From positions 158,776-222,775 of the IMG/VR virus record IMGVR_UViG_3300036770_007547: a DNA stretch of 64,000 bases; one strand, given 5' to 3'. The DNA comes from a virus. Position numbers and translations under genes: made by a program. Positions 28,950 to 58,378 of the stretch are shown here, piece after piece; positions within the stretch are counted from its first letter, which is position 1; every line of letters starts with the position of its first letter. The notes under the pieces are model-generated. The model saw nothing but the letters and a program-made list of their open reading frames with translations, was not told where the DNA came from and ran no database searches.

Positions 28950-29255
28950 ATGAATCCCGAAGACATCGTTGCTTTATCCCGCAGCAGATTCGATCATGAA
29001 TCTGCTCGCCGGGTGCTCAAAGAAAAATATCAAGCCAAACTTGTGTTTGCACATGCCGGCGGTATGTGGCAAGCTGGTCCAGAATTGCAGACCACTTTGC
29101 TGACTTGTCCAGAACCCGAAGCCGTGATACTAGATCTCTATGAAACACCGGTAAAAATCAATGTCCAGGATCTTATGACCAAAAGCCAAGAGCGTTGGCA
29201 AGAACAAATGACGGCTTGGCTGATCGAACATCAAAATCTGAGTCGGCAACGATGA
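28950..29255 (+). CDS. Conserved small phage protein (101 aa)
   Basis: First gene after the sigma70-type promoter, predicted to be on a leaderless transcript. The sequence is charged and soluble (EDIVALSRSRFDHESARRVL, KEKYQAKLVFAHAGGMWQAG), with a helical C-terminus. Proteins of this kind occur in T4-like cyanophages as far as I recall, without known function. The stop overlaps the next start in ATGA, so it is the leading member of the operon. No catalytic, metal-binding or membrane motif is visible. Confidence 0.7.
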   Translation: MNPEDIVALSRSRFDHESARRVLKEKYQAKLVFAHAGGMWQAGPELQTTLLTCPEPEAVILDLYETPVKINVQDLMTKSQERWQEQMTAWLIEHQNLSRQR

Positions 29256-30004
29256 ATCGTGGAGTAGTTATTTTCGCCACAGATTCAGACTCGATCAAAT
29301 ACACAGCCATGGCCCAGTGGAGCGCTGATCGTATACAACGACATCTCGGATTGCCAGTGACTGTGATCAATGGGCAAGACCTGTCACCGCAACAGCGTTG
29401 GTTTGACGATTTTGGCAGCAACGTGGATTGGTACAATTCGGATCGCAGCGATGCTTGGAATCTAAGTCCCTATGACGAGACCTTGGTGTTGGATGCCGAC
29501 TACGTGGTGTCCAGCGATTGTTTGATCAAGCTGTTTGAAACAAAGCAAGATTTTTTGGCCATGGGCGAGGCCTACGACGTGACCGGTCTACGAGAAAACA
29601 TCAACCAATTTGGCAGATACAACATGCCCATGGCCTGGGCCACAGTGATGTTTTTCCGTCGCAGTCGGCTGGCTCGGGCAGTGTTTGAAATGATGCAAAT
29701 GATACGCGAACACTGGCATCACTATCGCGATCTTTATGGGTTTCCGGGATCTTTGTTCCGCAACGACTACGCACTCAGTATCGCGCTCAATACCTTGCAC
29801 GGACATCAAGGGCGTTGGCCAGCCATACCTTGGAAGATGGCCAGCCTTGATCCCGAACACAAATTGACACAGCTCGATCAAGATCGTTTCGAAGTCATCT
29901 ATTCAAAACCCGATGGACGACGCAGCCGAATCATGATAGATGGACAGGATTTCCATGCCATGTGTAAACGCGACCTTGGAGCCATAGTCGATGCTGCGAT
30001 GTGA
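29252..30004 (+). CDS. Glycosyltransferase-like protein with DxD motif
   Basis: ATG at 29252 (ATGA overlap) is chosen over an in-frame start at 29195, because the resulting N-terminus MNRGVVIFATDSDSIKYTAM starts a nucleotide-binding-type strand. 250 residues. LVLDADYVVSSDC (DxD at 81-83) fits the metal/nucleotide-sugar site of GT-A glycosyltransferases. Upstream, LGLPVTVINGQDL resembles the sugar-nucleotide fold core. It has no signal peptide or membrane segment and is probably cytoplasmic. The next gene has a related layout. The exact donor and acceptor cannot be told. It most likely acts in the glycan pathway suggested by the operon. Confidence 0.7.
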   Translation: MNRGVVIFATDSDSIKYTAMAQWSADRIQRHLGLPVTVINGQDLSPQQRWFDDFGSNVDWYNSDRSDAWNLSPYDETLVLDADYVVSSDCLIKLFETKQDFLAMGEAYDVTGLRENINQFGRYNMPMAWATVMFFRRSRLARAVFEMMQMIREHWHHYRDLYGFPGSLFRNDYALSIALNTLHGHQGRWPAIPWKMASLDPEHKLTQLDQDRFEVIYSKPDGRRSRIMIDGQDFHAMCKRDLGAIVDAAM

Positions 30005-30719
30005 ACGTGGGTACCTCATTCCAGCCATTGGTCAGGAATACCTGATTTGCGCACAACGGTTGAAGCAGAGCCTGCTGGATTGGAATCCCGGAGCAGATGT
30101 CACTATAATCACTGCCGAAGATCTGCCACACGGTGACCAGGGTGGTCAAGCCAATGATTGGCAGATGTTCTATGTTTCGCCTTACCGCCAGACCATAAAA
30201 CTCGAATCCGACATGTTGTGCACCAGCCAATTCGATCACTGGTGGTCACTGTTTGAAAACCTAGATGTGGTCATCAGCCAAGGCTGCCGCGATTGGAAAG
30301 GGCAACACAGCCCGGTGCGACGATACCGAAGATTCTTGGACGCCAACCATCTACCAGATGTCTACAATGCCATCACCTATTGGCGTCTCAGCGACACTGC
30401 CCGCGATTTTTTCGATCTCACCCGAGTGATCTGGCAGAACTGGAAATCGATTTCTTCCAATTTGAAATTCGCTGACCAAGAACCCAGCACCGACTTTGTT
30501 TATGCTGTGGCAGCCGAGACCATGGGAAGACAGCGTGTGACTTTGCCAGTGGGCATCGGCCCCACGATCACGCACATGAAACCAGTGATAGGTGGTTCTT
30601 TGACCGGGCCTTGGACACGAGAAATGATGTGGGAAAAAGTCGATGGTGAGTTGCGTATAAACACCATAAGCCAACACGGCATGTTCCATTATCAGATCAA
30701 GGACTGGGATCCATCATGA
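29991..30719 (+). CDS. Glycosyltransferase-like protein, paralog of the preceding gene
   Basis: 242 residues, overlapping the upstream gene by 14 bp and the next by 4 bp. The layout parallels the previous protein: an N-terminal strand (GYLIPAIGQEYLICAQRLKQ), DVTIITAEDLPHGDQGG, then IKLESDMLCTSQFDHWW where the DxD is replaced by E-S-D (72-74). C-terminal Trp-rich segments follow (GPWTREMMWEKVDGELRIN). The changed motif may mean altered metal use or a non-catalytic partner. The family assignment is by fold-like pattern only. Confidence 0.62.
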   Translation: MLRCERGYLIPAIGQEYLICAQRLKQSLLDWNPGADVTIITAEDLPHGDQGGQANDWQMFYVSPYRQTIKLESDMLCTSQFDHWWSLFENLDVVISQGCRDWKGQHSPVRRYRRFLDANHLPDVYNAITYWRLSDTARDFFDLTRVIWQNWKSISSNLKFADQEPSTDFVYAVAAETMGRQRVTLPVGIGPTITHMKPVIGGSLTGPWTREMMWEKVDGELRINTISQHGMFHYQIKDWDPS

Positions 30720-31060
30720 AACAATACCCTGCATTGATCCAGGCCATGCAGCAACGCATGCCTTTGCCTGCACCGCCGCAGTATCGTCTCTATTACGACG
30801 ATCTAGGAAGGCCGATAACTTACACCACCGAAGATTTGCCCGGTAATTATGTGGTGCTCACTGTGGACGAGTATGCGTTTGCCAGCCCACATGTGCGTGT
30901 GAAAAACGGCAAGTTGATCACAGTGTCGCGGCGCCCGGCCGAGAAACTGATATCAGTGTCGGATCACGGACAAAGATGTCATCCCTGTGATGTCACAGTG
31001 ATAGTGTCTGAATCAATGCCAGCAAGATTATGGAGATTACAAGATGAATCCACGATATGA
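30716..31060 (+). CDS. Conserved phage protein of unknown function (114 aa)
   Basis: The start overlaps the previous stop in ATGA and the end overlaps the next gene by 17 bp. The sequence includes YRLYYDDLGRPITYTTEDLP, NYVVLTVDEYAFASPHVRVK and a C-terminal QRCHPCDVTVIV with a CxxC-like CHPC pair. No known enzyme motif stands out. The CHPC could bind metal or form a disulfide. It is embedded in the glycosyltransferase/radical SAM operon and is probably an accessory to that pathway. Confidence 0.65.
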   Translation: MKQYPALIQAMQQRMPLPAPPQYRLYYDDLGRPITYTTEDLPGNYVVLTVDEYAFASPHVRVKNGKLITVSRRPAEKLISVSDHGQRCHPCDVTVIVSESMPARLWRLQDESTI

Positions 31061-31973
31061 CATCGCGGACCTAGATTGCATATTCCTCACCTACGACGAA
31101 CCACAACGCGAAGAATTTTGGGTGAAAATCAAAAACATGATCCCTTGGGCTCAACGAGTGGATGGTGTCAAGGGATCGGATGCTGCACACAAGGCCGCGG
31201 CCGATGCCAGCCAAACCGAACGGTTCGTCCTCATCGACGGGGACAACATACCCGACATGGAGTTTTTTAATTTGATACTAGAGTTCCCCACATTGGAACA
31301 TCAACAAGCAGTGTATCGATGGCGGGCCAGGAATCACATCAATGGATTGATGTACGGCAACGGGGGCATCAGTTCATGGACACGCGAATTCGCATGGAAC
31401 ATGCGCACACATGAAAACACCGACGGTCGAGAAGAAACACAGGTGGAATTTTGTTTCGATCCCCTTTACTGGTCCATGCATGATTGTTATTCGACCACAT
31501 ACCCCAACGGCAGTGCTTTCCAGGCCTGGCGTGCGGGGTTCCGAGAAGGTGTCAAGATGTGCTTGGATCAAGGACGCCGACCTACAGTCGCAGAATTCCG
31601 CGAACGAGTACACAGTCGAAATCTCGACAATCTCACTGTATGGCACAATGTGGGCGACGATGTCGAACATGGTATCTGGGCCATCATGGGCGCCAGGATG
31701 GGAACTTATCTGACCATGTTGGATGATTGGGACTATCGAGAGGTACAGAGCTTTGACGCTCTAGCCAAACTTTGGGAAGTGGAACAATACGTGGATCCCT
31801 ACGAAGCCGCCGATACCTATGCCAAAGGTTTGCGAACACGGTTGGATCTTCCCACGTGCAGACTTGACCCCGAACAAAGCCGATTCTTCAAGCATCATTA
31901 TCGCAGCAATTGGTCGAACCTGGGTGTGATGGTGCGCGAGATCGATGTCATACGTCGCCAGGAAGGATGGTAA
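31044..31973 (+). CDS. Glycosyltransferase-like protein with DGD motif
   Basis: 309 residues. FVLIDGDNIPDMEFF (DGD at 65-67) sits after GVKGSDAAHKAAADASQTER, a layout I associate with T4-like cyanophage proteins annotated as glycosyltransferase-like. The Trp/His-rich middle (HNVGDDVEHGIWAIMGARMG) and the C-terminus are soluble. It overlaps its upstream neighbour by 17 bp, and its TAA abuts the TTG start of the first radical SAM gene. The module around T-x-R/P-F/W-x-x-x-D resembles repeated segments in the 531-residue protein at 46938, so the two may be related. Confidence 0.65.
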   Translation: MNPRYDIADLDCIFLTYDEPQREEFWVKIKNMIPWAQRVDGVKGSDAAHKAAADASQTERFVLIDGDNIPDMEFFNLILEFPTLEHQQAVYRWRARNHINGLMYGNGGISSWTREFAWNMRTHENTDGREETQVEFCFDPLYWSMHDCYSTTYPNGSAFQAWRAGFREGVKMCLDQGRRPTVAEFRERVHSRNLDNLTVWHNVGDDVEHGIWAIMGARMGTYLTMLDDWDYREVQSFDALAKLWEVEQYVDPYEAADTYAKGLRTRLDLPTCRLDPEQSRFFKHHYRSNWSNLGVMVREIDVIRRQEGW

Positions 31974-33005
31974 TTGAACATAATCGGTCTCGATGATGGC
32001 TATCGATTCAAACTCGAAAGCATGCCACGTGGCGCACACAAGTCCCAACCCATAACACATCGTTGCAATCGACCCAGTCGTGTGGTCACTGTGGACTTCA
32101 ACGGCAACTGTCTGGTGTGTAGCTGTGATGGATGGTTACCGGTACCAGTGGGGCAGGTACAAGATTTCAGCACACTGGATTCGGTATGGGCTTCGTCGCG
32201 GGCACAGATGTTGCAACAAGACATAGACCAAGGAAGGTTCACCTGGTGCGCTGTGGAACACTGTGGCATCAAGCACAACGACATTGACCATGGCATGTAC
32301 GAACTCGCCATCAACATCGATGAAAGCTGCAACCTTTCCTGCGCCAGCTGCCGACGTGACACCATCATGCATACCACCGGTGCTGTGGTCGAGAAAAAAC
32401 AACAAGACATGCAGCGCATACTGGAATGGTTGGAGGATTTTGATCGACCTTTGCATGTGGTGACTTCGGGCAACGGAGATCCGTTGGCCAGCGTGGTCAT
32501 GCGTAAATTCCTGCAGAATTATCAACCTCGCCCGGCACAGTTTTGGACCATGTTCACCAACGGACTGTTGATCAAAAAACAGCTGGAACGACTGCCTGTG
32601 CTGGCAGCTATAAAAAATTTCCGCATCAGCGTGGATGCAGCCCGTGCCGACACATATGCTCGCGTGCGTCGCGGTGGACATTGGCCCACGCTCATGGAAA
32701 ACTTTGAATTCCTGCAAAATTTTGACGGCGACTTTGAAGTCACTGTGAATTTTTGTGTGCAACAAGCCAACTATCAAGAGATACCCGAGTTCATCGCACT
32801 GTGCCAAACGCATGGATTCAAGCCACACATACACGAACTCGATGACTGGGGCACCTGGGATCGATTCCACGAACACAATGTGTTGGACCTCCGTCATCCC
32901 GACCATGTGGCTTGTCGGAACATCGTGGAATCCAGCCTGGGTAAAAATCACAAACGTCGATGGTTTTTCAGCACAAGACTCTTGGAGCTATTGTCACTGA
33001 CATGA
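31974..33005 (+). CDS. Radical SAM enzyme with N-terminal twitch domain (array member 1)
   Basis: 343 residues from a TTG start directly after the previous stop. No ATG gives a complete N-terminus. C119-x3-C123-x2-C126 (CNLSCASC) is the 4Fe-4S/SAM site. Ahead of it lies a twitch/SPASM-like half-domain with Cys 46, 49, 51, 92 and 97 and the pattern LDSVW-x-SSRAQML, suggesting an auxiliary cluster. The usual GGEP SAM-amine motif is replaced by SGNGDP. Conserved radical SAM strands follow (FRISVDAARADTYARVRRGG). Such N-twitch proteins are known in phages. The substrate is unknown, and a glycan or peptide precursor is inferred from neighbours. Confidence 0.82.
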   Translation: MNIIGLDDGYRFKLESMPRGAHKSQPITHRCNRPSRVVTVDFNGNCLVCSCDGWLPVPVGQVQDFSTLDSVWASSRAQMLQQDIDQGRFTWCAVEHCGIKHNDIDHGMYELAINIDESCNLSCASCRRDTIMHTTGAVVEKKQQDMQRILEWLEDFDRPLHVVTSGNGDPLASVVMRKFLQNYQPRPAQFWTMFTNGLLIKKQLERLPVLAAIKNFRISVDAARADTYARVRRGGHWPTLMENFEFLQNFDGDFEVTVNFCVQQANYQEIPEFIALCQTHGFKPHIHELDDWGTWDRFHEHNVLDLRHPDHVACRNIVESSLGKNHKRRWFFSTRLLELLSLT

Positions 33006-34393
33006 CCAACAAAAGCCATTTCATGAACGCGGCCGAAGAGATGCAGAAGAAACTGGCGGCTGTGAGTCCCAGTCTTTGCCTGGCCAAATGGAAACAGACC
33101 AGCCTGCATCTCACCACAGGACACACCAACTCGTGCTATCATCCACCCCTGCATCGCATACCCATCGAGCCCTTGGCCCAGGATCCCGGTGCCTTGCACA
33201 ACACAGATCACAAGCGACAGCAGCGAGTGATGATGCTGAAGGGAGAACGTCCTGCAGAATGCCAGTACTGCTGGAACATGGAAGACCTGGGCCATCTCAG
33301 TGATCGTCATTATCGCAGTGGCGAACCCTGGGCAGCCATAGACTTTGATCGCATCGCCAACAGCCAAGGAGACGAACTTGATGTTATCCCCAGTTATGTT
33401 GAAGTCAATTTTAGCCATGCTTGCAATCTTAAATGCAGTTATTGTAGTCCGCAATTCTCATCGACTTGGGGCGACGAAGTGGCCAGACTGGGCGGCTATC
33501 CTACTAGCACTCCTCATAATGCACCTGAGTATTTTCATGGTGATCGCCGACCTATTCCGTTACGGGAGCATAATCCCTATGTAGAGGCCTTCTGGCAGTG
33601 GTGGCCAACACTGTATCCCCGCCTGCAACATTTCCGCATGACCGGAGGCGAACCGCTCATGGACCGGAACACCTACCGAGTGTTTGACTATGTGTTGGCC
33701 ATGCCCAAGCCTGACCTGCATCTCAATGTCACGTCGAATTTCAGCGTGGAACCAGGCCTGTGGGTCAAATATTTAGATTATGTTGAGCGCCTGTGTGCCA
33801 CCAACATCGAACATTTCATGCAGTACGTGAGCCTGGATTCGGGCATACGAGAACATGCTGAATACATACGTCATGGACTCAGCATGGGTAGGATTCATAC
33901 TTACGTGGATGAATACCTAGAACGTGTGCCGGGACGTAACAGTCTCACTTTCATCATCACCATGAACAATCTATCGGTGTTGGGACTGCAACGTCTGTTA
34001 GAATATATACTGGAGTTGAGACAGACACACAGCAAGACCTATCAAAAGATCTGGTTTGATACTCCCGTATTGCGTCAACCCGCATGGCAGAGCCTGCAGA
34101 TCTTGCCCGAGAGTTATGCTGCCACCCTGGAGCGCACTGCTGACTGGATGGAGCTGAACATGGAAACGCCGGATGACCCATTCCATGGATTCAAAGACTT
34201 CGAAGTGCAGCGCCTGCGCCGCGACATAGCCTGGATGCGCGAAGGTCAGCGACTGGACCATGACCAGGCCCAAGCCGACTTTTACAGATTCTTTGCCGAA
34301 CACGACCGCCGCCGCGGCACTGATTTTTTACAGACCTTTCCCGAAATGCGCGAGTGGTGGAAACACTGTGAACGTCTCTCCAATCAAACATAG
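33002..34393 (+). CDS. Radical SAM enzyme with N-terminal Cys-rich domain (array member 2)
   Basis: ATG at 33002 (ATGA overlap) is preferred over an in-frame start at 32960. 463 residues. The core motif is C141-x3-C145-x2-C148 (CNLKCSYC), followed by SPQFSSTW and TGGEPLM (GGEP at 215-218). The N-terminal domain has C26, C45, C87 and C90 (CQYCW) and the phrase ALHNT, shared with the gene at 35503. These two form a sub-family distinct from the other array members. A likely auxiliary Fe-S cluster sits in this N-terminal part. The end overlaps the next GTG start by 26 bp. Confidence 0.85.
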   Translation: MTNKSHFMNAAEEMQKKLAAVSPSLCLAKWKQTSLHLTTGHTNSCYHPPLHRIPIEPLAQDPGALHNTDHKRQQRVMMLKGERPAECQYCWNMEDLGHLSDRHYRSGEPWAAIDFDRIANSQGDELDVIPSYVEVNFSHACNLKCSYCSPQFSSTWGDEVARLGGYPTSTPHNAPEYFHGDRRPIPLREHNPYVEAFWQWWPTLYPRLQHFRMTGGEPLMDRNTYRVFDYVLAMPKPDLHLNVTSNFSVEPGLWVKYLDYVERLCATNIEHFMQYVSLDSGIREHAEYIRHGLSMGRIHTYVDEYLERVPGRNSLTFIITMNNLSVLGLQRLLEYILELRQTHSKTYQKIWFDTPVLRQPAWQSLQILPESYAATLERTADWMELNMETPDDPFHGFKDFEVQRLRRDIAWMREGQRLDHDQAQADFYRFFAEHDRRRGTDFLQTFPEMREWWKHCERLSNQT

Positions 34394-35510
34394 ACTTTTT
34401 CTAGATGAGTTCAGCAACGTACAAAGCTGTCTACGGCCCTGGGCCCACCACACTTTCCATGACCTAGCTGCCAGCTATCACGGACCTGGGTGCTATGTAC
34501 TGAGTCGTCAACAGTTGGTGCAGAACATCGAACTGGTACGCAAGTTATGCGAGCTCGATGATCATGTCATGGTGTTGGAAAATTCTTCGGAAGGATCGGA
34601 GACACTCACTGGCCATTTCCGACAAATGGGCATCGAAGAATTGGTACGATCTCGACGCTTGCTGGTGATCGCGGGCGGAGACATGGATCACACATATCCA
34701 CATCTGCTTTATCAGCATTTTTTGTGTTGTGTGCTTGATTATCCGGAAAATCGTCTGGCGCAACAACGCACACAAGACATATTTGACCACAAGTCCCGGC
34801 CCTACGACTTCATGTTCCTGAACGGTCGTGGCCGCGGGCATCGACGCTATCTATGGCATCGATTCCAACAGTTGGGTCTGCTGGATCGTGCCTTGTGGAC
34901 CATGCTGGATGGCCGCCCCATATACCCCACTGGACTGACTTTGCACCACAGCGGACATGATCTCATGAGCGATGTCATACCCTTGCAGTGGTTGCCGACA
35001 AAGTATGAATATCATGAATTCCGAGACTCGCAAGTGATTCCTGGCCCGCCCAATCGCACCTTTGTCAAGCCCGAACTGTTCAAACACACCTGGGGCGACA
35101 TTTATCTGGAACCACAGGGCTATGTTGACACCTATTTCAGTGTGGTCACCGAAACTGTGTTTGAATCGCAACACAGTTTTTTCACTGAAAAGATAGCCAA
35201 GCCCTTGGCCCAGGGCCATCCCTGGATAGCAGTGGCCAATCCTGGATTCTACCGGGATTTGCGTGCCCTGGGATTCAGAACTTTTTCACATGTGATAGAC
35301 GAAAGTTTTGATGCCATCCAGGATCATCAGACTCGTCTAGAGCGCATAGTTGCCGTGGTGCAAGACATTTGCCGACAGGACCTTTCGGCTTTTGTGGATG
35401 CCTGCCAGGAGGTGTGTAAATACAATCAGCGCCATCTAGCAGCATTTTCACAATCACATCGCCGGAAATTGCCCCGACGATTTTTTGATTTCATAAAAAC
35501 CAATGAATGA
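34368..35510 (+). CDS. Glycosyltransferase-like protein, TEK-KP family (paralog A)
   Basis: GTG at 34368 is chosen: the upstream part of the frame is the antiphase of the radical SAM gene, and the next in-frame ATG would remove a conserved region. 380 residues. The C-terminal block VVTETVFESQHSFFTEKIAK, then KPLAQGHPWIAVANPGFYRD, LRALGFRTFSHVIDESFD, is shared with the proteins at 44650 and 45833. The block resembles the nucleotide-sugar-binding half of exostosin/GT-B-like enzymes, but I cannot prove activity. It is flanked on both sides by paired radical SAM genes, with overlaps of 26 and 8 bp, so it is probably translated together with them. Confidence 0.68.
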   Translation: MNVSPIKHRLFLDEFSNVQSCLRPWAHHTFHDLAASYHGPGCYVLSRQQLVQNIELVRKLCELDDHVMVLENSSEGSETLTGHFRQMGIEELVRSRRLLVIAGGDMDHTYPHLLYQHFLCCVLDYPENRLAQQRTQDIFDHKSRPYDFMFLNGRGRGHRRYLWHRFQQLGLLDRALWTMLDGRPIYPTGLTLHHSGHDLMSDVIPLQWLPTKYEYHEFRDSQVIPGPPNRTFVKPELFKHTWGDIYLEPQGYVDTYFSVVTETVFESQHSFFTEKIAKPLAQGHPWIAVANPGFYRDLRALGFRTFSHVIDESFDAIQDHQTRLERIVAVVQDICRQDLSAFVDACQEVCKYNQRHLAAFSQSHRRKLPRRFFDFIKTNE

Positions 35511-36840
35511 CATCGAGTATCGCCAACAAATCCTGGACAATATATCCGCCAGCTTTTGTGCAGCCAAATGGTACAACGCCACGATATGGTTGGGATCGGG
35601 CCAGACCACGTCGTGCCATCACCCGCCCGCTCATGCCATAGACATCACAGCCATCCATGACAATCCCAAGGCCTTACATAACACGTCCGCTAAAAAACAA
35701 GACCGCGCTGACATGCAGGCTGGTCGTAGACCCGCTGGTTGCGAGTATTGCTGGAAGATCGAAGACATGGGCAGAGACGCTGTGTCGGATCGTGTATACA
35801 AGAGCCGCATATACCCGATCCAGGCTATATATGATGCAAGCGAGATGGATCCGAATGTGGACGTCGATCTCCGCACGCTGGAGATTGCCTTTGACCGCAC
35901 TTGTCAGCTGGCTTGTTCTTACTGTAATCCTGCTTTTAGCTCTACCTGGGTTAAAGACATCCGGACTCATGGACCATATCTGGCCCTGGAATCTGATGGT
36001 CGAAACCATTTTACTCACGCTCATGATCATGCCCAGTTGTATCGCTTCGGTGAGGATAATCCATATATCAGCGCGTTTTTTCGGTGGTGGGAAACGGACC
36101 TCCACCGCACCTTGGACGAGCTGCGCATCACTGGTGGCGAACCGCTCATGTCGGGATATACATGGCAATTGCTGGAATGGTTCAAGGCGAATCAGGGTCG
36201 TTCCAAGACGCGTCTAGCCATCAACTCAAATCTCAGCATCACACGTCAGCGTCTCCGGGAATTCATTGAAGCCACGCAGTACATAGAAAATCTCGATGTT
36301 TACACCAGCAACGAAAGTGTTGGCGGCCAGGCCGAGTACATACGTGACGGACTTGACTATGATCTCTGGATGCACAATGTACAAGAACTCCTGGAACATC
36401 AACACATCCGCGCAGTACACAGCATGTGTACCATCAATGCACTTTGCTTGGACAGTCTGCCGGAATATCTGGACCAACTGATACAGCTGAAAAAACACTA
36501 CGGACGAGATCGAGTCAATTTCACTCTCAACATACTGAGATTTCCCAGCTTCCAATCACCGTTGGTGTTGCCCGATGACTTGCGAACATGCTATCGTGAT
36601 CGTTTGGTCCAGTTCATGGTCAAACACAAAGGATGTTCGTATCTGCACGAACACGAATGGCGGCATCTGCAACGACTGGTAGACTATCTAGACGTGGTCA
36701 AAACTCCGCACGCTGGCGCACGTGAACGATCGGTGTTGCAAAATGATTTCGCCAAGTTTTATCAACAGTATGATCAGCGACGCGGCAAATGCTTTGTCGA
36801 AACTTTTCCGGGAATGGCCCAATGGTACAGTCAACTATAG
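35503..36840 (+). CDS. Radical SAM enzyme with N-terminal Cys-rich domain (array member 3)
   Basis: 445 residues. C134-x3-C138-x2-C141 (CQLACSYC), then NPAFSSTW and a GGEPLMSG motif, as in array member 2. The N-terminal Cys set (C19, C38, C80, C83, with CEYCWKIEDMG) and ALHNTSAKK match that protein, showing a recent paralogous pair. The first overlap is 8 bp with the GT-like gene. The last is 19 bp with the next radical SAM. Differences lie mainly in the C-terminal substrate region. Confidence 0.85.
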   Translation: MNDIEYRQQILDNISASFCAAKWYNATIWLGSGQTTSCHHPPAHAIDITAIHDNPKALHNTSAKKQDRADMQAGRRPAGCEYCWKIEDMGRDAVSDRVYKSRIYPIQAIYDASEMDPNVDVDLRTLEIAFDRTCQLACSYCNPAFSSTWVKDIRTHGPYLALESDGRNHFTHAHDHAQLYRFGEDNPYISAFFRWWETDLHRTLDELRITGGEPLMSGYTWQLLEWFKANQGRSKTRLAINSNLSITRQRLREFIEATQYIENLDVYTSNESVGGQAEYIRDGLDYDLWMHNVQELLEHQHIRAVHSMCTINALCLDSLPEYLDQLIQLKKHYGRDRVNFTLNILRFPSFQSPLVLPDDLRTCYRDRLVQFMVKHKGCSYLHEHEWRHLQRLVDYLDVVKTPHAGARERSVLQNDFAKFYQQYDQRRGKCFVETFPGMAQWYSQL

Positions 36841-38528
36841 ATTTTTCACACATCGGGATTCTCCGAGATCGCGAGATATTGGCATCGATAAATCTCGACG
36901 AGTTTGAATATTCGGCCATGACATGGCCGGGTTGGATCGAACAAAAATTGCGCAGTCTCCATCGACCAGTTTTTGACGATCATCAGAGATTGGTGTTTTA
37001 TTATCACGAAGATTACTACACTGATCACAGTGTGGTAGGCAAAAAAATCAAGTGTCTACAGGAAAAGCTGAATCTAGTGGACATCTCGAATTTTTTCTGT
37101 GTGATCATCAGCAGCAATCCTGCACTGGATCAAGAGATCCAAGAGTTGAAACAGATCTCGACAGATCCAACGCCGTTGGGTCATGCCACTGTGGCTGGAT
37201 CTTACAATAGATCACAGCTGGAGTCCAAACGTCGTTACTCGTACTCCAGTCCCGAACCAGTTGGAGTCAGCCTGGACAGCCTCTCGCCCCGGCATCAATA
37301 TCTGCTGTCAGAGAGCCAGTATTTTTGCATGTATCCTTGGACGCATCTTCATGCTTGGCCCACCGGTGAAGTGTGGCCATGCTGCATGGCCGATTCCAAG
37401 CCGGGTCCCTTGGGCAATTCAAAGACCCAGGAGCTGAAGATGATCTGGAACGGCGATAAAATGAAACAACTGCGCCTCGACATGCTGAACGAAAAACCCA
37501 ACGATCTTTGTGTGCGCTGTTACGAAAAAGAACAGAGTGGATTTTTCAGCGGACGTCGCAGCGCCAACAAGCATCAGGGACACCACATCTCCAAGATAGA
37601 CAGCACCGGCATTGATGGGTCAGTGGAAGACTTCCAGATGGTGTATTGGGACATAAGATTCAGTAATCTTTGCAATCTCCGGTGTCGCACTTGTGGATAT
37701 ATCTTCAGCAGCCAATGGTGGAAAGATCAAAAGAAACTCATGGGCGAGTGGGGTGACAAATGGGCTCGGGAAACTCCGGTGTTGAACTATGCTGGACGGC
37801 ACGAAACTGACATGTGGGAACAGATGATGCCACATCTTGACTACGTAGAACAGATCTACTTTGCTGGCGGCGAACCCTTGCTCATGGAAGAACACTATCT
37901 CATATTAGACGAACTGGTCCGACGCGAGCGATTTGATGTGAGATTGATATACAACACCAATTTCACCGAAACCAGACTGAAAGATCGTTTGGTTTTCGAG
38001 TATTGGAAGAAATTTGATTCAGTGAGCGTGGGCGCCAGCCTTGATGCCATGGGCCCACGTGCAGAATACATCCGCAAAGGCACTGACTGGTACCAGATCG
38101 AATCCAATCGTGAAAAGATGTTGGAGATATGTCCCGACGTGGATTTCTATGTCAGTCCCACGCTCAGTATATTGAATGCATATCATATCTCAGAATTCCA
38201 TAGAGATTGGACCCAGCGTGGATTGATACAAGCGCAAGATCTCAATGTCAACATCTTGCAAGATCCCCTGCACTATCGAATCGATGTGGCCACACAGCCG
38301 ATGAAACTCGAACTCAGTGCCATGTGGAAAGATCACCTGGACTGGTTAGAACCACAGGACTCGCTCAAGCGAGCCACGAACGGATTCAAGAGTGCGATAT
38401 CTTTCTTGAACAACATCGATAACTCACACATGATTCCAGTGTTCTGGGCCAAGACCAACGAACTAGATGCCATACGCAACGAACGTTTGTTGGACCATGT
38501 TCCTGAATTGAAGGCATTACAAGCATGA
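36822..38528 (+). CDS. Radical SAM enzyme with extra N-terminal domain and twitch (array member 4)
   Basis: ATG at 36822 is preferred over one at 36789, since it starts 19 bp before the upstream stop. 568 residues, the longest of the array. Residues 1-~160 are an extra domain of unknown fold (FDDHQRLVFYYHEDYYTDHS). The twitch half-domain then gives FCMYPWTHLHAWPTGEVWPC with C169, C187, C188, C230 and C233, and LKMIWNGDKMKQLRL. C284-x3-C288-x2-C291 (CNLRCRTC), IFSSQW and AGGEPLLME follow. The SPASM-like order is reversed relative to ordinary SPASM enzymes. Confidence 0.86.
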   Translation: MVQSTIDFSHIGILRDREILASINLDEFEYSAMTWPGWIEQKLRSLHRPVFDDHQRLVFYYHEDYYTDHSVVGKKIKCLQEKLNLVDISNFFCVIISSNPALDQEIQELKQISTDPTPLGHATVAGSYNRSQLESKRRYSYSSPEPVGVSLDSLSPRHQYLLSESQYFCMYPWTHLHAWPTGEVWPCCMADSKPGPLGNSKTQELKMIWNGDKMKQLRLDMLNEKPNDLCVRCYEKEQSGFFSGRRSANKHQGHHISKIDSTGIDGSVEDFQMVYWDIRFSNLCNLRCRTCGYIFSSQWWKDQKKLMGEWGDKWARETPVLNYAGRHETDMWEQMMPHLDYVEQIYFAGGEPLLMEEHYLILDELVRRERFDVRLIYNTNFTETRLKDRLVFEYWKKFDSVSVGASLDAMGPRAEYIRKGTDWYQIESNREKMLEICPDVDFYVSPTLSILNAYHISEFHRDWTQRGLIQAQDLNVNILQDPLHYRIDVATQPMKLELSAMWKDHLDWLEPQDSLKRATNGFKSAISFLNNIDNSHMIPVFWAKTNELDAIRNERLLDHVPELKALQA

Positions 38529-39736
38529 TACCGCACGACAAATTTTGCGTGTTGCCCTGGATCAGTCTAGAGACTTCACCTGTGGGCACAGTGCGGCCTT
38601 GCTGTCTGGCCGAACACGAGATCGTGGATGATCTCGGCTGCAAATTCAATCTTGATCGCGCAAATCTCCATGAGATCCAACACAGCGCACACATGCGTCG
38701 ACTGCGACAACAGTTCCTGGACGGTGAGAAACCCACCACATGTCGCAAGTGCTGGAGCGAAGAAGACGCTGGTCGCACCAGCAAACGCATGCACACCTTG
38801 GATCGTCTCAAGCACATCGTCAAAGATGAAGAATGGACTGTGGATGCCCGGCCTTTGATGTTCCTTGATCTCAAGCTGGGCAACATCTGCAATCTCAAAT
38901 GCAGGATCTGCGGATCATGGAGCAGCTCTTCGTTTGCCACTGAAGAAATATCAAACATACCCGATCCGGCATTCCGCAAAAGCAGTGTCCACTATCAGAT
39001 GCTGAAGCAAGGCGCCTGGCCCCGAGAGAATCCCACATTCTGGGCGCAGATCGACGGATTACTAGATCAGATCCGCTACATCGAATTCACCGGCGGTGAA
39101 CCTTTCATGATCCAAGAACACTTTGACATGCTGCAAGGCATGGTGGATCGTGGCATCGCTCACAACGTAGAGATACACTACAATACCAATGGCACACAAT
39201 GGCCCGAGGGTGCCGAAGCGATATGGCAGCACTTCCGGACTGTGGAAATCGCATTCAGCATCGACGATCTTGATCAACGATTCGAATATCAAAGAACCAA
39301 TGCAGCGTGGACCGAAGTCGTGGCCAATCTAAGTCGTTTCCGCGAGCTGCGGTCACGGCACCGGAACATACAGTTACAGGTGTGTAGCACAGTCAACATC
39401 TTCAATGTATGGCACCTCGAAGGCCTGGCCGAATGGATCGACCAGCAGGATTTCGATTTCATTTACTGGAACATGTTACACGAAGCCCGACATTTCAGTA
39501 TATCAGCTCTGCCGCCCGGAGCCAAGATGTTGGCAGCCCAGAGATTGGACACAGCCACAGTCAGCGATTTCCATCGCAGAGAATTTGATTTGATCCGGGA
39601 TTTCATGATGGCCGGAGAAAGCATGCCCGTGGAAACCATCCGCGAACAGATCCGGAGACTGGATCAGCGACGCGACCAGGACTTGAGATCCACGATCTGG
39701 GAATTGGCCGAGGCCCTGGACTATGACCCGACCTGA
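38525..39736 (+). CDS. Radical SAM enzyme with N-terminal twitch (array member 5)
   Basis: 403 residues, ATGA overlap with the previous gene. The twitch region KFCVLPWISLETSPVGTVRP has C8, C26, C27, C73 and C76 (CRKCW). The SAM-cluster motif is C122-x3-C126-x2-C129 (CNLKCRIC), followed by FTGGEPFMIQ. Later core strands include VEIHYNTNGTQWPEGAEAIW and VEIAFSIDDLDQRFEYQRTN. The protein is compact and lacks the N-terminal extension of array member 4. The start of the next gene overlaps its end by 14 bp. Confidence 0.87.
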   Translation: MIPHDKFCVLPWISLETSPVGTVRPCCLAEHEIVDDLGCKFNLDRANLHEIQHSAHMRRLRQQFLDGEKPTTCRKCWSEEDAGRTSKRMHTLDRLKHIVKDEEWTVDARPLMFLDLKLGNICNLKCRICGSWSSSSFATEEISNIPDPAFRKSSVHYQMLKQGAWPRENPTFWAQIDGLLDQIRYIEFTGGEPFMIQEHFDMLQGMVDRGIAHNVEIHYNTNGTQWPEGAEAIWQHFRTVEIAFSIDDLDQRFEYQRTNAAWTEVVANLSRFRELRSRHRNIQLQVCSTVNIFNVWHLEGLAEWIDQQDFDFIYWNMLHEARHFSISALPPGAKMLAAQRLDTATVSDFHRREFDLIRDFMMAGESMPVETIREQIRRLDQRRDQDLRSTIWELAEALDYDPT

Positions 39737-41018
39737 CTCTTTTTGTATGGCACCGTGGACTCACACTTATGTGAGCCCACAGACTGAGCGCAGGATGTGC
39801 TGTGCCAGCCGCGAGCCTGCGCAGAATTTCCAGCAGTACATAGACACAGCCGCAGGCACAGGCCAGTACATCCCCATCACCCTAGACGAACACTGGAACA
39901 GCGATCACATGCGCAGCGTGCGTCGCAGGATGATGGCCGGGGACACCTTGCCTGAATGCGAAGTATGCAACAATCAACTGCTCAACACCGCGGTCTATCG
40001 CGACTATTTCAATCAGCTGTTTGGTCACAAGTATGCGGAGGCCATAGCCAGAACAGACACAGACGGACGCACCGACATGCAGCCCGTGAGCTGGGATTAT
40101 AGATTTTCAAATCTCTGCAATTTCAAATGTAGGATGTGTGGCGACATGCTGAGTTCGAGCTGGGAAACCGAACAGCGCCAGCATGACATGATCGATTGGA
40201 GCAATCCCAAGAACGCTTGGATGCAACCCCACACACGCCAGGAAATAAGTAAGTTCCAAGACACTGTGATCGAGCGCGAGTTCGCTGCGGCAGTGGAACA
40301 ACATCGTGTGGAAGAAGTGTATTGGGTGGGTGGAGAACCGCTCATGTACGAGCAACACTGGCGCTACATGCAACGCATCATTGAACTGGGAGACGGTCCA
40401 CGTGTCTATGCTAGGTATAATACTAATCTTAGTCGTTGCCATTATCGCGGCGTGGATCTTTTTCGCGACATCCTCGATCATTTACGAGATTACCAGATCT
40501 GCGCCAGCCTTGACGGAACTGGAGCCACAGGAGAATACATCCGAACCGGACTGCGCTACGACCAATGGCTTGAAAACTTCCAACGAGGTGTGGACCACCG
40601 AAGACACAGCCGCCAATTTAGACTCGACTTCACGCTCACCCTACCCGGTTTATACGAAGTCGGAAATATACAGGAATTGGCAGACACACACCAAGTAGAA
40701 GTTTTGGCCAAAGTGGTATTCAGTTTCACTCCCGACATCGTCATGAGTCCGCTGTGCTTGCCAAGGTCGTTGCTGGAGCCGAGACTGCGGAGTCTCATGT
40801 CACAAACACACGGGGCCATGCGAGATGTGCTCGAACAATTGATAAAACGTCCCACGTTCCAGGAATCTTGGCCTGACACCTGGCAAATGGGTCTTGCTAA
40901 AGGCAAGGCTCGTGTGTTAAAATTAGAGTCCATACGCAACGACAGTTATACCATGGCCGATATTTTACGCAAGGATCCCGAAGTCCATGAATGGTGGCAA
41001 CAAATCCCAACGCATTGA
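39723..41018 (+). CDS. Radical SAM enzyme with N-terminal twitch (array member 6)
   Basis: 431 residues. Twitch: SFCMAPWTHTYVSPQTERRM with C8, C26, C27, C79 and C82. The core motif is C132-x3-C136-x2-C139 (CNFKCRMC), with SSSWETE, then WVGGEPLMYEQHW and ICASLDGTGATGEYIRTGLR, a common radical SAM strand. It overlaps the previous gene by 14 bp and the next by 32 bp. It is the last in the tandem array. Whether the six enzymes act on one substrate in turn or on different ones cannot be told. Confidence 0.87.
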   Translation: MTRPDSFCMAPWTHTYVSPQTERRMCCASREPAQNFQQYIDTAAGTGQYIPITLDEHWNSDHMRSVRRRMMAGDTLPECEVCNNQLLNTAVYRDYFNQLFGHKYAEAIARTDTDGRTDMQPVSWDYRFSNLCNFKCRMCGDMLSSSWETEQRQHDMIDWSNPKNAWMQPHTRQEISKFQDTVIEREFAAAVEQHRVEEVYWVGGEPLMYEQHWRYMQRIIELGDGPRVYARYNTNLSRCHYRGVDLFRDILDHLRDYQICASLDGTGATGEYIRTGLRYDQWLENFQRGVDHRRHSRQFRLDFTLTLPGLYEVGNIQELADTHQVEVLAKVVFSFTPDIVMSPLCLPRSLLEPRLRSLMSQTHGAMRDVLEQLIKRPTFQESWPDTWQMGLAKGKARVLKLESIRNDSYTMADILRKDPEVHEWWQQIPTH

Positions 41019-42060
41019 AATCGATCTCACAGATCATCACGAACACATCATCACTCTCTACATCGATGTGGGAGACACCAGTCTCGGTCACAAATGGTTG
41101 TGCGCCCTAGAGCATTTGATCAGCGGTGAGTATCACCTAGAGAAAAACTACTGTTTCTTGGGATTTCCCGATGGTGCACGCGATGGCAACTACATCCTAG
41201 ATCAAGTCAATCACAGCATACAAGCCATCAACACCGCTGATTTGGGATATCGCATACAGGATCGGTTTGACATGGCCACCATGTTTGAACACCAACCAAG
41301 ACCACGCACCATGCGCCAGGAGCGCATGAATGACTTGCATAGATACTTTGAAGAATTACAGGGCGTGAGTGGTTCCATGAGTGTGTACTATCAAAGGGCC
41401 GATGCTGCCACGCGGTGGCACATCAGACAACTCAATCTCTTGTGTCACGAGTTCGAATCATGGGCATTGAGCTGGCGCAAACAGCTGGAAGCACCAGACT
41501 GGATCCGCCCCAGCCAGCTCATGTGTTGGTTGGGGGCTCCGAGATTCAAGCTCGAACCCCAAGACTTTGAACTGTTTGGGGTCGACACCATAAGTCGCCG
41601 CCTGGGCGGTGTGTATGTGGGTGTGAACAAAGCAGTTGGAAAGCATCACTGGGAAGTGTTCCACGACGAGGGCCGTGACAGCAGGATCGGTGAGTTGACC
41701 ACCACAGTGTTGAAGGGACAGACCGAGGCCGCCGGGGACTTTGACATCGAATGGGGCCGCTATGCCGGGGACCAACCTTGGCAACTGGCCGAGCTGGAGG
41801 CTTTCCGTGATTGGCTGAGAGACAACGGGTTTGATCCCGAAGACAAAAGTCTCACTATCGGTCATCCCTGTGTGGCGCAAGTGGATCTCCAGCGCAGCTT
41901 TGGTTCAGAACATTATCGCGACATTTGGCAGCAATTAAATACGCATCTAAACGTGGCAGAGATACGAACTCCAAATGCAAGAACCACGTACCAGTATCGT
42001 TGGAGCGACACTGGATATGCTCAAAAACAAATTGATGTGATCAGCAAGGAAATGTCATGA
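40987..42060 (+). CDS. Conserved phage protein of unknown function (357 aa)
   Basis: Overlaps the end of the last tandem radical SAM gene by 32 bp and the next small gene by 4 bp. The sequence is soluble and Trp/His-rich: IEIDLTDHHEHIITLYIDVG near the N-terminus, a HRYFEELQGVSGSMSVYYQR helix region, a middle block FELFGVDTISRRLGGVYVGV, and WGRYAGDQPWQLAELEAFRD. I know similar proteins only as hypothetical cyanophage proteins. The tight overlaps suggest a partner of the radical SAM enzymes, such as a carrier or substrate-presenting protein. That is a guess from position. Confidence 0.65.
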   Translation: MNGGNKSQRIEIDLTDHHEHIITLYIDVGDTSLGHKWLCALEHLISGEYHLEKNYCFLGFPDGARDGNYILDQVNHSIQAINTADLGYRIQDRFDMATMFEHQPRPRTMRQERMNDLHRYFEELQGVSGSMSVYYQRADAATRWHIRQLNLLCHEFESWALSWRKQLEAPDWIRPSQLMCWLGAPRFKLEPQDFELFGVDTISRRLGGVYVGVNKAVGKHHWEVFHDEGRDSRIGELTTTVLKGQTEAAGDFDIEWGRYAGDQPWQLAELEAFRDWLRDNGFDPEDKSLTIGHPCVAQVDLQRSFGSEHYRDIWQQLNTHLNVAEIRTPNARTTYQYRWSDTGYAQKQIDVISKEMS

Positions 42061-42158
42061 CATGGTTGAAACGATTGATCGGATGGATCAAACTAGAAAT
42101 ACGTTATCGCAGGAAACTGCGCGAGTTACGCAAACGCGACCCTTTCATTTATAAATGA
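42057..42158 (+). CDS. Small basic 33-residue peptide
   Basis: This frame is too short for most ORF callers. It begins ATGACATGG in an ATGA overlap with the previous gene and ends in an ATGA overlap with the carbamoyltransferase gene. Both junctions are exact, which strongly supports a real gene. The peptide (MTWLKRLIGWIKLEIRYRRK, LRELRKRDPFIYK) has net charge about +9 and an amphipathic helix. Short Arg/Lys-rich peptides with a conserved DPFIYK-like end occur in related phages, as I recall. Possible roles include RNA or membrane binding, or a modification substrate for the neighbouring radical SAM enzymes. All are speculative. Confidence 0.72.
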   Translation: MTWLKRLIGWIKLEIRYRRKLRELRKRDPFIYK

Positions 42159-43642
42159 ACATACTAGGAATCAGTGCGGGTTTCCATGACGGTTCAGTGA
42201 GCCTGGTGTCCCCGAACGGCGACATATTGTTTGCTGCCCACAGCGAAAGATACAGCCGTGTCAAAAACGATGATGGTATATCACCAGACATGCTGGCCGA
42301 AATCGACGGTACACAAATTGGCACACTGGCCTTTTACGAACGACCTTGGATGCATGGTTTGCAGCGAGCAGTGAGTGGGCAGACTCCTTTGCCACCCTTG
42401 AGCCTATCAGGCACGTTGTCCCAACATCTCAATGGCTGGTATCTGAAAAATGCCGTGGAAGATCGTAGATGCTTCTCGCATCATCTCAGTCATGCCGCTG
42501 CGGGTTTCCAGACATCACCGTTTGATGACGCCACTGTGGTGGTGATAGATGCCATTGGAGAACTTGACACTGTTTCCATCTATCGTGCCTGTTACGATGA
42601 CCAGGGCCAGGCACAGTATCAACGACTGTGGCGGCAAAGGTATCCACACAGCATTGGATTATTCTACAGTGCCGTGACCAAAGCCGTGGGACTCAAGCCC
42701 ATGGAAGAAGAATATATAACCATGGGCATGGCTGCTTATGGCAGCGATCTCGGTGCCGCCTGGATGCGCGAGCATCTCGTCGAGGATCTACAACAAGTGA
42801 GATTCCACAAGAATCTGCACATTGGATTCGATGAATACGAGTTGCCATTCACCCACAACGAAGATATCGCGGCTTCGGCCCAGGCCCTGACCGAGCAGTT
42901 GATCATGTCAGTGATGCGACGTGCTCGCGATCTCACCGGTGGTGGCAATCTCGTTTACATGGGTGGTGTGGCCTTGAATTGCCTGGCCAATCGTTTGTTG
43001 GGAGACTATTTTGATGACATTTGGATCATGCCCAATCCCGGAGATGCTGGATCGAGTCTTGGTGCAGCCGCTCTTGCTTATGGTCAGCGCCTGCGCTGGC
43101 GTGACCCTTATCTTGGTCACACTATCACTGGCGATTATCCTGTTCGTGCCCTACTCGATGATCTTGCTGACGGGGGTATTGCTGCTGTGGCTAGCGGACC
43201 AGCTGAGTTTGGTCCTCGTGCCCTAGGCAACCGTAGTCTATTAGCAGATCCTCGCGGAGAGGATATCAAGGATAGAGTCAATGAAATTAAGCGACGTCAA
43301 AAATTTAGACCCTTTGCCCCGGTCATACTGGCCGAGATGGTCAATGACTACTTTGATATGCCACCTGTTTGGCACCGCAGCGATTACATGCAAGTGGTCG
43401 CCCGGTGCCGTCGCCCTGATCTTTTTCCTGCTATATGTCATGTTGATGGCACCAGCCGAGTACAGACAGTTCCAAAGAATTCGCGATCGGGCATCCGCCA
43501 ACTCCTAGAACAATGGTATGCCCAGACCGGCTGTCCCATGTTATTGAACACCAGTCTCAATGTGCGCGGGGAACCCATGATCAACACTCGAGACGATGCT
43601 GATAGATTCACTAGATTTTACGGCGTGCCCGTGAGATCATAG
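42155..43642 (+). CDS. Carbamoyltransferase, NodU/TobZ/CmcH family
   Basis: 495 residues, a little shorter than the ~570 of typical NodU/TobZ proteins. N-terminal YrdC/Kae1-like features are AHSERYSRVKND, HHLSHAAAGFQTSPFDDATV, YITMGMAAYGSD and YMGGVALNCLANR. C-terminal features include SGPAEFGPRALGNRSLLADP and NTSLNVRGEPM. These proteins carry out carbamoyl-phosphate-dependent O-carbamoylation, usually of sugars. In an operon of glycosyltransferase-like and radical SAM genes it probably carbamoylates a glycan or nucleotide sugar. The start forms an ATGA junction with the basic peptide gene, and its end overlaps the convergent amidinotransferase by 6 bp. Confidence 0.86.
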   Translation: MNILGISAGFHDGSVSLVSPNGDILFAAHSERYSRVKNDDGISPDMLAEIDGTQIGTLAFYERPWMHGLQRAVSGQTPLPPLSLSGTLSQHLNGWYLKNAVEDRRCFSHHLSHAAAGFQTSPFDDATVVVIDAIGELDTVSIYRACYDDQGQAQYQRLWRQRYPHSIGLFYSAVTKAVGLKPMEEEYITMGMAAYGSDLGAAWMREHLVEDLQQVRFHKNLHIGFDEYELPFTHNEDIAASAQALTEQLIMSVMRRARDLTGGGNLVYMGGVALNCLANRLLGDYFDDIWIMPNPGDAGSSLGAAALAYGQRLRWRDPYLGHTITGDYPVRALLDDLADGGIAAVASGPAEFGPRALGNRSLLADPRGEDIKDRVNEIKRRQKFRPFAPVILAEMVNDYFDMPPVWHRSDYMQVVARCRRPDLFPAICHVDGTSRVQTVPKNSRSGIRQLLEQWYAQTGCPMLLNTSLNVRGEPMINTRDDADRFTRFYGVPVRS

Positions 43643-44659
43643 ATAGGTTTCCAGTGGCCCACGACGACGTATGTCCTGGGTCACACAAGAAATCCCGCCA
43701 TCCCAAAAGTATCGATGCCGCAAAGGAGCGATTATGGGTTCGATCCTGTGGCGTTGACAGAACTCAAACACTTCTTTGTTGTAGCTGGAAAATATCACAT
43801 GATGCTCGTCGAGCACCAGGCAGTTGACATCAAACACAGTTTCGCTGACAAATCCGGTCCAGTGCGAGAGATACTGATCCACATAAGCAGCAAAGGCCGG
43901 ATCATCGTGGCTGCCTTCCACCCACCATCTTCCATTGAACGAAGACTCTTTGAATTGTCCCACGGCCAAGCTGGCTTCGATGTTGCTGAGTGGTACACGG
44001 CAAACTTCCCAGCCCGGGAACGTGTCTCGATAATTGATGTCAGCATCGTGTTTGCTTGACAATATCACTCCGGGTCGCAATATGGCAAACACAGCATCTC
44101 CGTGACCGTTGGTCTGACAACGGCGCACACGGAACCTTGAATCCAATGCATGCTGTTGTATCCACTCCATCTGCTGACTGGTCATGTATTCGCTGTTGTC
44201 AAACAGCACATCGGTGCCAACTCGAACTATGCAGCTGGCCACAGCGCCCGCCATCACAGCATCACGTGCCTGCAACACCGAGCCCGGTTGTAAACGCTGA
44301 TATTCGGTGATGATTCCGTTGTACTCGTAGTCATCGTTGAATCGCAACAAACGCTCGCCCAGGGTTATCTGTGTGTCTCTGGGGGTTATGGGTGGAGTAG
44401 GTGGACGCATGCCACGCGACAGCATGTCCTGGAAACTGAGAACTCCGGTGGGTTCAGGTCTGCGCACCCGGGCACCGAATCTTTGTATGACTCGAGCCAG
44501 ATTGTCCAGGTCTTCTTCGGTCTCTTCCATGATACGCTGTAGTTGTTTGCGTACCCGGCGGTCCGGTATCGAAGAAAAATGTTTTTTGCTATAGACGCGC
44601 CCCACTATCACTTCTTCCAAGGGCTGCCAACTGGTGTAAGATTGTACGGTCAATTCCAT
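43637..44659 (-). CDS. Amidinotransferase-family protein (guanidino group modifying)
   Basis: 340 residues, minus strand. The N-terminus WQPLEEVIVGRVYS is the W-x-P-L-x-E-V-(I/V)-V-G pattern of the amidinotransferase/arginine deiminase superfamily. Candidate catalytic residues are H186 in NGHGDAV and C325 in GGISCVTQDIRR. A plausible acidic site and the substrate block VFDVNCLVLDEHHVIFSSYN also fit. Glycine amidinotransferase moves an amidino group from arginine to an amine. Here it could amidinate an amino sugar. Arginine deiminase-like chemistry is also possible. It converges with the carbamoyltransferase gene and is the last gene of a minus-strand transcript. Confidence 0.78.
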   Translation of the reverse strand: MELTVQSYTSWQPLEEVIVGRVYSKKHFSSIPDRRVRKQLQRIMEETEEDLDNLARVIQRFGARVRRPEPTGVLSFQDMLSRGMRPPTPPITPRDTQITLGERLLRFNDDYEYNGIITEYQRLQPGSVLQARDAVMAGAVASCIVRVGTDVLFDNSEYMTSQQMEWIQQHALDSRFRVRRCQTNGHGDAVFAILRPGVILSSKHDADINYRDTFPGWEVCRVPLSNIEASLAVGQFKESSFNGRWWVEGSHDDPAFAAYVDQYLSHWTGFVSETVFDVNCLVLDEHHVIFSSYNKEVFEFCQRHRIEPIIAPLRHRYFWDGGISCVTQDIRRRGPLETYL

Positions 44660-56919: not shown

Positions 56920-56940
56920 TGGTTGATGACATGGTCATGA

Positions 56941-56965
56941 AAAAGCCCGCCGAAGCGGGCTTTTG
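56941..56965 (-). terminator. Rho-independent terminator of tmRNA
   Basis: A 10-bp stem (AAAAGCCCGC / GCGGGCTTTT) with a TTCG tetraloop on the minus strand, followed by a T-run. The symmetric flanks mean it may work in both directions. Confidence 0.9.
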
Positions 56966-57265: not shown

Positions 57266-57283
57266 TCATACAGCGATAATACT

Positions 57284-57290
57284 ATTTACT
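57284..57290 (-). promoter_or_regulatory. Candidate late promoter of tmRNA
   Basis: GTAAATA on the minus strand overlaps the pstS stop codon, with a predicted start near 57278. A 6-bp hairpin (ATCGCT/AGCGAT, 57261-57278) follows, just before the acceptor piece. tmRNA may also be read from the pstS transcript. Confidence 0.4.
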
Positions 57291-58293: not shown

Positions 58294-58328
58294 TGTGGTC
58301 TCCTTGTGAGTGTGATAGTGATTGTGTG

Positions 58329-58378
58329 CTTTATACACCAACCTATTTAATTACGTTGATATTACAATCTTGTTACAA
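58329..58378 (-). promoter_or_regulatory. Pho-box-like direct repeats and promoter of pstS
   Basis: Three heptamers on the minus strand, TTGTAAC (58378-58372), TTGTAAT (58367-58361) and ACGTAAT (58356-58350), are spaced exactly 11 nt, the period of PhoB binding boxes. TATAAA (58335-58330) follows 14 nt later as a -10 candidate, and TTAAATA (58350-58344) is a possible late element. Suggests control of pstS by host PhoB under phosphate starvation. Confidence 0.7.

Follow-up and report, generated by a model that had tools for sequence, protein, structure and literature searches.

What might a phage do with a run of radical S-adenosylmethionine (SAM) enzymes encoded end to end, and do such genes constitute a pathway or merely a local duplication? 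The question is raised by positions 31974-41018 of the window analysed here, which is the final 64 kb of the 222,775-base virus record IMGVR_UViG_3300036770_007547. An initial annotation had read this segment as six overlapping radical SAM genes, interrupted by one glycosyltransferase-like gene and forming part of a dedicated modification pathway. Their position and overlaps are borne out, whereas the equality of the six is not: five genes, rS2 to rS6, form a core set of enzymes with an N-terminal twitch domain, and the remaining one, rS1, is an accessory member of a separate family. The core set is maintained in a nearly invariable order across dozens of related, uncultured aquatic phages and has counterparts in Bdellovibrionota, a lineage of predatory bacteria. 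Judging from the sequences, we place about half of our confidence in a pathway that tailors an unusual sugar or glycan in several steps, its product probably being exposed on the virion or envelope.

A fixed set of five enzymes

All six genes lie on the plus strand, rS1 at 31974-33005, rS2 at 33002-34393, rS3 at 35503-36840, rS4 at 36822-38528, rS5 at 38525-39736 and rS6 at 39723-41018, with the putative GT-B-like gene GTd (34368-35510) between rS2 and rS3; the refined starts, among them 33002, 34368 and 36822, are consistent with ATGA-type overlaps. The reference model for the family is NCBIfam NF033640 (N_Twi_rSAM, twitch domain-containing radical SAM protein), whose curated cutoff is 170 bits. 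The five core proteins are members at 288-385 bits (309, 296, 385, 332 and 288 bits for rS2 to rS6, respectively); rS1 reaches only 46.4 bits and was found in no more than 12 of the 80 related loci, and the idea of six equal members was thus abandoned in favour of five plus one accessory.

The C-x3-C-x2-C motif is present in all six proteins and GGEP in five, rS1 having GNGDP instead. Among the orthologues of each core member (15 to 73 non-redundant sequences per member), the cysteine triad of the SAM cluster has a frequency of 1.00 and the four twitch cysteines have frequencies of 0.98-1.00. In rS2, the twitch cysteines are C40, C59, C101 and C104, and these, together with the SAM-cluster cysteines, are invariant in 45 non-redundant orthologues; in rS5, they are C8, C26/27, C73 and C76. 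Each core enzyme thus keeps the cysteine sets predicted to hold one SAM-cleaving and one auxiliary iron-sulfur (Fe-S) cluster. That the auxiliary cysteines precede the SAM domain, as had been proposed, is confirmed by the Pfam SPASM model, which matches the N-terminus of the products of 31974 (rS1, residues 31-97), 36789, 38525 and 39723. Residues 10-85 of the family profile align to the C-terminal twitch of BtrN; this alignment, weak in E-value (0.004-0.006), falls exactly at the position expected of a permuted twitch.

The extra N-terminal domain of about 160 residues noticed in rS4 is real, though not general, being found in only 13 of 95 orthologues. It is homologous to the N-terminal half of a phage protein whose C-terminal half belongs to the family of GTd and of the downstream protein h368, which links the radical SAM enzymes indirectly to these putative glycosyltransferases. 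The AlphaFold2 model of rS5 (pLDDT 91.5) has CteB, SkfB, anSME, viperin and BlsE as its best matches in the Protein Data Bank (PDB), with MoaA also among its neighbours; as these matches are mixed and their TM-scores low, the fold leaves the substrate class undecided. Against the viperin models NF038283 and TIGR04278 (cutoffs of 180 or 450 bits), the window members score at most 28.6 bits. Fusions of two N-twitch radical SAM units in one polypeptide occur in another phage contig (L289:8670-11219) and in a bacterium (L259:10448-13078).

Conservation was examined in 80 loci on viral contigs fetched with rS5 as bait, most of them 51-79% identical; the conclusions drawn from this sample apply to relatives of this lineage. 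All five core genes are present in each of the 70 loci with sufficient flank, in exactly the order rS2-rS3-rS4-rS5-rS6 in 67 (by gene, rS2 in 75/75, rS3 in 77/77, rS4 in 78/78 and rS6 in 75/75). The dN/dS of close pairs is 0.045 to 0.08, and the array is under strong purifying selection. For these five, then, the outcomes that had been named as damaging to a pathway do not appear: the enzymes belong to one family, the cysteine motifs are intact in relatives and the neighbours are conserved.

The view that such an accumulation is unusual in a phage has to be tempered, as large aquatic phages carry between 1 and 21 N-twitch genes and a T4-like genome with 12 radical SAM genes has been known since 2017. 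The present phage, annotated in stretches outside the window, has about eleven or twelve radical SAM genes in total. A further short radical SAM-like protein, weakly similar to HxsC, is encoded within the window at 61471-62358, near a tRNA cluster; in the same phage, L006, L007, L008 and L212, further N-twitch or radical SAM genes stand beside genes reading as uvsX, clpP and gp46/gp47. Cultured or isolate carriers turned up only as the Vibrio phages K566 and K567, together with single-cell marine virus fragments.

Ancient paralogues and their putative iron-sulfur supply

A tree of 108 sequences resolves every phage paralogue as a separate clade with a counterpart in a single cluster of a Bacteriovoracaceae genome (L232); support for this pairing is 1.0 for rS2, rS3 and rS6 and, less firmly, 0.92 for rS5 and 0.70 for rS4. 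The two sub-families discerned by eye, 33002 with 35503 and 36822 with 38525 and 39723, are true clades. As each paralogue is an old clade with a bacterial counterpart, a recent tandem duplication is ruled out; the five are ancient and non-redundant, and for the same reason they have probably been passed on as a set. The bacterial cluster appears to be chromosomal, since it is flanked by gene starts that we take to be those of rplU, rpmA and obgE, and the obgE neighbourhood is found again beside rS2-like genes in two further loci (L264 and L283).

Relatives of rS3, up to 53% identical, are found in 56 of 192 sampled Bdellovibrionota genomes, several of which have six to ten matches. Querying genomes of the Genome Taxonomy Database (GTDB) with the single rS5 protein returned no close relatives, and a profile of the conserved motifs was needed to find them. 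Five loci filed under bacterial bins (L213-L217) resemble phage contigs and carry array members together with the putative glycosyltransferase genes GTa, GTb and GTc described below. In Bdellovibrionota, proteins bearing the motif DLWxRNS...SDxDxT, nucleotidyltransferase-like to judge from their sequence and lacking a Pfam match, stand beside rS2- or rS3-like genes in L254, L264 and L283, and one of them is fused to an rS6-like enzyme (L262:3667-6006).

Elsewhere in the record, at about 42.4-43.2 kb, the phage carries overlapping iscU and iscA-like genes (L287:4384-5173). The IscU protein passes the NCBIfam equivalog model TIGR01999 (222 bits versus a cutoff of 192), and the IscA-like protein scores above the TIGR00049 subfamily cutoff. 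Of 26 other large records, 9 likewise encode IscU, among them 7 of the 8 array-bearing ones longer than 300 kb, with one of the copies interrupted. A connection between these proteins and the radical SAM enzymes is supported by the work of Nishimura et al. (2017, PMC5332604), which reports an A-type carrier along with twelve radical SAM genes in the T4-like genome TARA_ERS488813_N000010 and argues that assembly proteins of this kind benefit not only the Fe-S proteins of the host but also those of the virus itself; that paper is prior art for the link in phages. In the present phage, IscU and IscA would supply clusters to about twelve radical SAM enzymes. Strict co-occurrence and order, five ancient and non-redundant paralogues, purifying selection, invariant cysteines and the phage-encoded IscU/IscA together give good support to a dedicated multi-enzyme pathway.

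A putative sugar-tailoring pathway and its rivals

What would such a pathway produce? The array belongs to a cassette of fifteen plus-strand genes (28950-43642), each overlapping or abutting the next with zero intergenic space, which lies directly 3' of baseplate and tail-fibre-type genes. The 5' part encodes GTa (29252-30004) and GTb (29991-30719), two mutually homologous, putative GT-A glycosyltransferases, the former syntenic 5' of the array in related loci, and GTc (31044-31973), a conserved putative glycosyltransferase present in 63 of 70 loci, with bacterial homologues near N-twitch genes of Bdellovibrionota in L266 and L268. On the 3' side, rS6 is followed by the companion gene h357 (40987-42060; 67/67 loci), by the basic 33-residue peptide p33 (42057-42158) and by a NodU/Nol-like carbamoyltransferase (42155-43642), the last two present in 65 of 65 loci. 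The carbamoyltransferase is confirmed by the presence of both Pfam domains, N-terminal PF02543 (1e-36) and C-terminal PF16861 (1e-49), and by phrog_1601 (5e-91). Beyond the cassette, the minus-strand gene at 43637-44659 (51/61 loci) encodes a protein of the AGAT/StrB/SxtG type that resembles human AGAT (2e-25), SxtG (5e-22) and inosamine-phosphate amidinotransferase (2e-21), in agreement with its earlier assignment as an amidinotransferase, its catalysis being putative.

Further downstream lie h420 (44650-45912, minus strand) and h368 (45833-46939, minus strand), both putatively GT-B-like and related to GTd (hhalign E-values of 6.5e-25 and, across the C-terminal 104 residues, 3e-20), h533 (46932-48533, plus strand), related to GTc (1e-18), and, on the minus strand, a DegT/StrS-family sugar aminotransferase (48505-49587; PF01041, 3.7e-62) and an NAD-dependent sugar epimerase/dehydratase (49594-50580; PF01370, 6.6e-47). 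The label "glycosyltransferase-like" given to several of these proteins holds weakly for GTb, whose best PDB profile match is glycogenin (E 0.04); the others match only each other. GTd, h420, h368, GTc and h533 have no Pfam match, and the sequence profiles of GTd, h533, h420 and GTc have no meaningful PDB match. GTd itself is present in 57 of 77 loci. As for h357, its AlphaFold2 model (pLDDT 78.6) matches ten phage proteins in BFVD; no Pfam, PDB-sequence or significant PDB-fold match was obtained, and no kinship with the N-terminal domain of rS4 was found.

Similar company is kept elsewhere. In a second phage lineage (L290), relatives of rS2, rS3, rS6 and rS5 lie within a deoxysugar cluster, in the company of TylF, DegT, a C-methyltransferase of sugar type, a UDP-sugar dehydrogenase and an epimerase. 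In Bdellovibrionota, genes resembling sugar nucleotidyltransferases and GT2 genes adjoin N-twitch genes, and in other loci GTc, the amidinotransferase and the carbamoyltransferase each have homologues. It is from these sugar-type neighbours in the window, in L290 and in Bdellovibrionota, and from the indirect link through the rS4 extension, that sugar or glycan tailoring is proposed. The likeness of the twitch to that of BtrN, an aminocyclitol dehydrogenase, and the tail genes immediately 5' of the cassette were counted on the same side. Aminotransferases, amidinotransferases and carbamoyltransferases occur as companions in aminocyclitol and sugar antibiotic pathways.

In the mechanism we propose, rS2 to rS6 would work one after another on a single scaffold, a sugar or a sugar nucleotide, the candidate radical steps being dehydrogenation, deoxygenation, epimerisation and the formation of carbon-carbon or carbon-sulfur bonds. 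Neighbouring enzymes would then add amino, carbamoyl and, in most relatives, amidino groups to the scaffold, and the putative glycosyltransferases would attach it to the host envelope or to a virion surface protein, most likely the upstream tail-fibre-type protein. The latter, encoded at 26206-27909 on the plus strand directly 5' of the cassette, has weak to moderate matches to PHROG tail-fibre and virion families as well as syntenic homologues, and is a candidate carrier. The outcome could be altered host recognition or protection of the particle.

Several observations weigh against this proposal. The similarities behind the glycosyltransferase assignments are weak or internal; L232/L254, the bacterial locus that holds counterparts of all five, has neither a carbamoyl- nor an amidinotransferase and none of the GTa-d families; and K566, with its three N-twitch-like genes, has none of the tested partner families within the 37 kb examined. 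The fold neighbours of rS5 include peptide maturases besides viperin, MoaA and BlsE, all at low TM-scores, and next to some bacterial relatives stands PqqD, which binds peptides as a partner of radical SAM maturases; in one polysaccharide locus, a PqqD-family protein (PF05402, 4e-9; L260:9008-9289) is encoded near an rS3-like gene. PqqD-like proteins were also seen in L261, L262 and L280.

These last points bear most directly on the main rival, in which a virion protein, such as one of tail-fibre type, is itself the substrate of the five enzymes and acquires, for instance, epimerised, cross-linked or thioether-bearing residues, the sugar genes decorating the same protein separately. The best-known SPASM/twitch enzymes act on peptides (PMC11002830), CteB and SkfB, both sactipeptide maturases, and anSME are among the top fold matches, the array is syntenic with tail-type genes, PqqD is encoded near rS3-like genes in L260, and the complete bacterial set has no adjacent carbamoyl- or amidinotransferase. 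However, such fold matches are generic to the superfamily, the phage cassette has no conserved dedicated precursor, and the sugar-tailoring neighbours recur in two phage lineages; we therefore consider direct protein modification unlikely, albeit deserving of serious attention. The initial annotation had named a surface glycan, a virion protein or the small peptide as possible targets, and between the first two there is more evidence for a sugar-type product. A free small molecule directed against the host or competing phages, such as a nucleotide analogue, signal or inhibitor resembling the products of viperin, appears improbable: a weak family and fold similarity to viperin, the expansion of the same genes in Bdellovibrionota and the aminoglycoside-like tailoring enzymes nearby speak for it, and scores far under the viperin model cutoff, the adjoining tail genes and the putative glycosyltransferases found in most loci speak against it.

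The third candidate target, p33, is basic and 33 residues long, has a near-invariant C-terminal half ending in RKRDPFIYK, and lies between the array and the carbamoyltransferase in every locus where this could be seen, features that might suit the precursor of a ribosomally synthesised and post-translationally modified peptide (RiPP). A scan of viral contigs for the RKRDPFIYK pattern retrieved at least 120 loci (L090-L209), with peptides of 33 to 45 residues and no match to a Pfam family. Among the matches listed with enough downstream sequence, p33 is directly 5' of the carbamoyltransferase, a few loci being too short to tell, and in many of these loci no radical SAM gene was detected locally, some such contigs carrying N-twitch genes elsewhere. 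Because the peptide precedes the carbamoyltransferase even there, it is best seen from its sequence context as a partner of that enzyme and not as the target of the array. It is moreover conserved along most of its length, unlike a typical variable core, and no other conserved peptide stands on the array side as a dedicated adjacent precursor, the upstream open reading frames h101 and h114 not being covered by this statement. Modification of p33 as a RiPP precursor was rejected on the scan and is very improbable. A local duplication, neutral or decaying and serving no pathway, has practically no probability as an account of the array: although related genes are indeed repeated in tandem, dN/dS values below 0.1, invariant cysteines, deep paralogy with bacterial counterparts and a fixed order refute it.

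Known systems and other features of the window

The N-terminal twitch preceding the SAM domain is shared by rS2-rS6 with the NF033640 family at large, whose name implies neither a function nor an arrangement, whereas the window presents five fixed paralogues in a conserved operon. BtrN and the other twitch enzymes of aminocyclitol and sugar-antibiotic pathways likewise possess a twitch, which in BtrN is C-terminal, and no orthology connects them to the array. With RiPP maturases such as CteB and SkfB, which are among the best fold matches, the core enzymes have in common a radical SAM core and an auxiliary cluster; known maturases, however, combine a C-terminal SPASM/twitch with an adjacent precursor, neither of which is found in the array. 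The Vibrio phages K566 and K567 (OZ196521 and OZ196593) have three clustered N-twitch-like genes, two over the NF033640 cutoff and the third at 154 bits, which are about 24% identical and form a separate group in the tree; K566 (L009) has a fourth radical SAM gene, and one relative scores 49.8 bits against a viperin model. TARA_ERS488813_N000010 is a T4-like aquatic phage, and its twelve radical SAM genes compare with about eleven or twelve here plus IscU and an IscA-like protein; the likeness is one of gene counts. The passage of PMC5332604 consulted lists the genes as Fe-S related and makes no mention of an array, of a gene order, of the N-twitch family or of a sugar cassette.

The N-terminal-twitch family and radical-SAM-rich T4-like phages are thus already known, while the conserved five-enzyme unit seems undescribed; in open-licence papers, no description of the five-gene unit, its bacterial counterparts or its sugar context was found. 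That the array represents a previously undescribed five-step radical SAM pathway, passed between jumbo phages and Bdellovibrionota as one block and making a new radical-tailored sugar or virion modification, with the phage bringing its own Fe-S assembly proteins, is a composite reading that we advance tentatively and would stop just short of backing. This analysis came upon no function for the N-terminal-twitch enzymes, although the family has a name, and a fixed five-enzyme set common to many uncultured jumbo phages and Bdellovibrionota is a defined unit for expression and assay, one with a real prospect of revealing a new pathway. If sugar tailoring is correct, phages run multi-step radical chemistry for their surface decorations, which bears on how hosts are recognised and on the reason for IscU and IscA in large phages.

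Two features outside the cassette may be added. Between the baseplate and fibre genes, one uninterrupted reading frame at 10413-25373 encodes 4,986 residues and has no PDB sequence match. On the minus strand at 56938-57328, with seven tRNAs nearby, lies a permuted tmRNA of betaproteobacterial type, which at its end runs into the start listed for a PstS gene (57286-58341); the type of this tmRNA only hints at Betaproteobacteria as the host.

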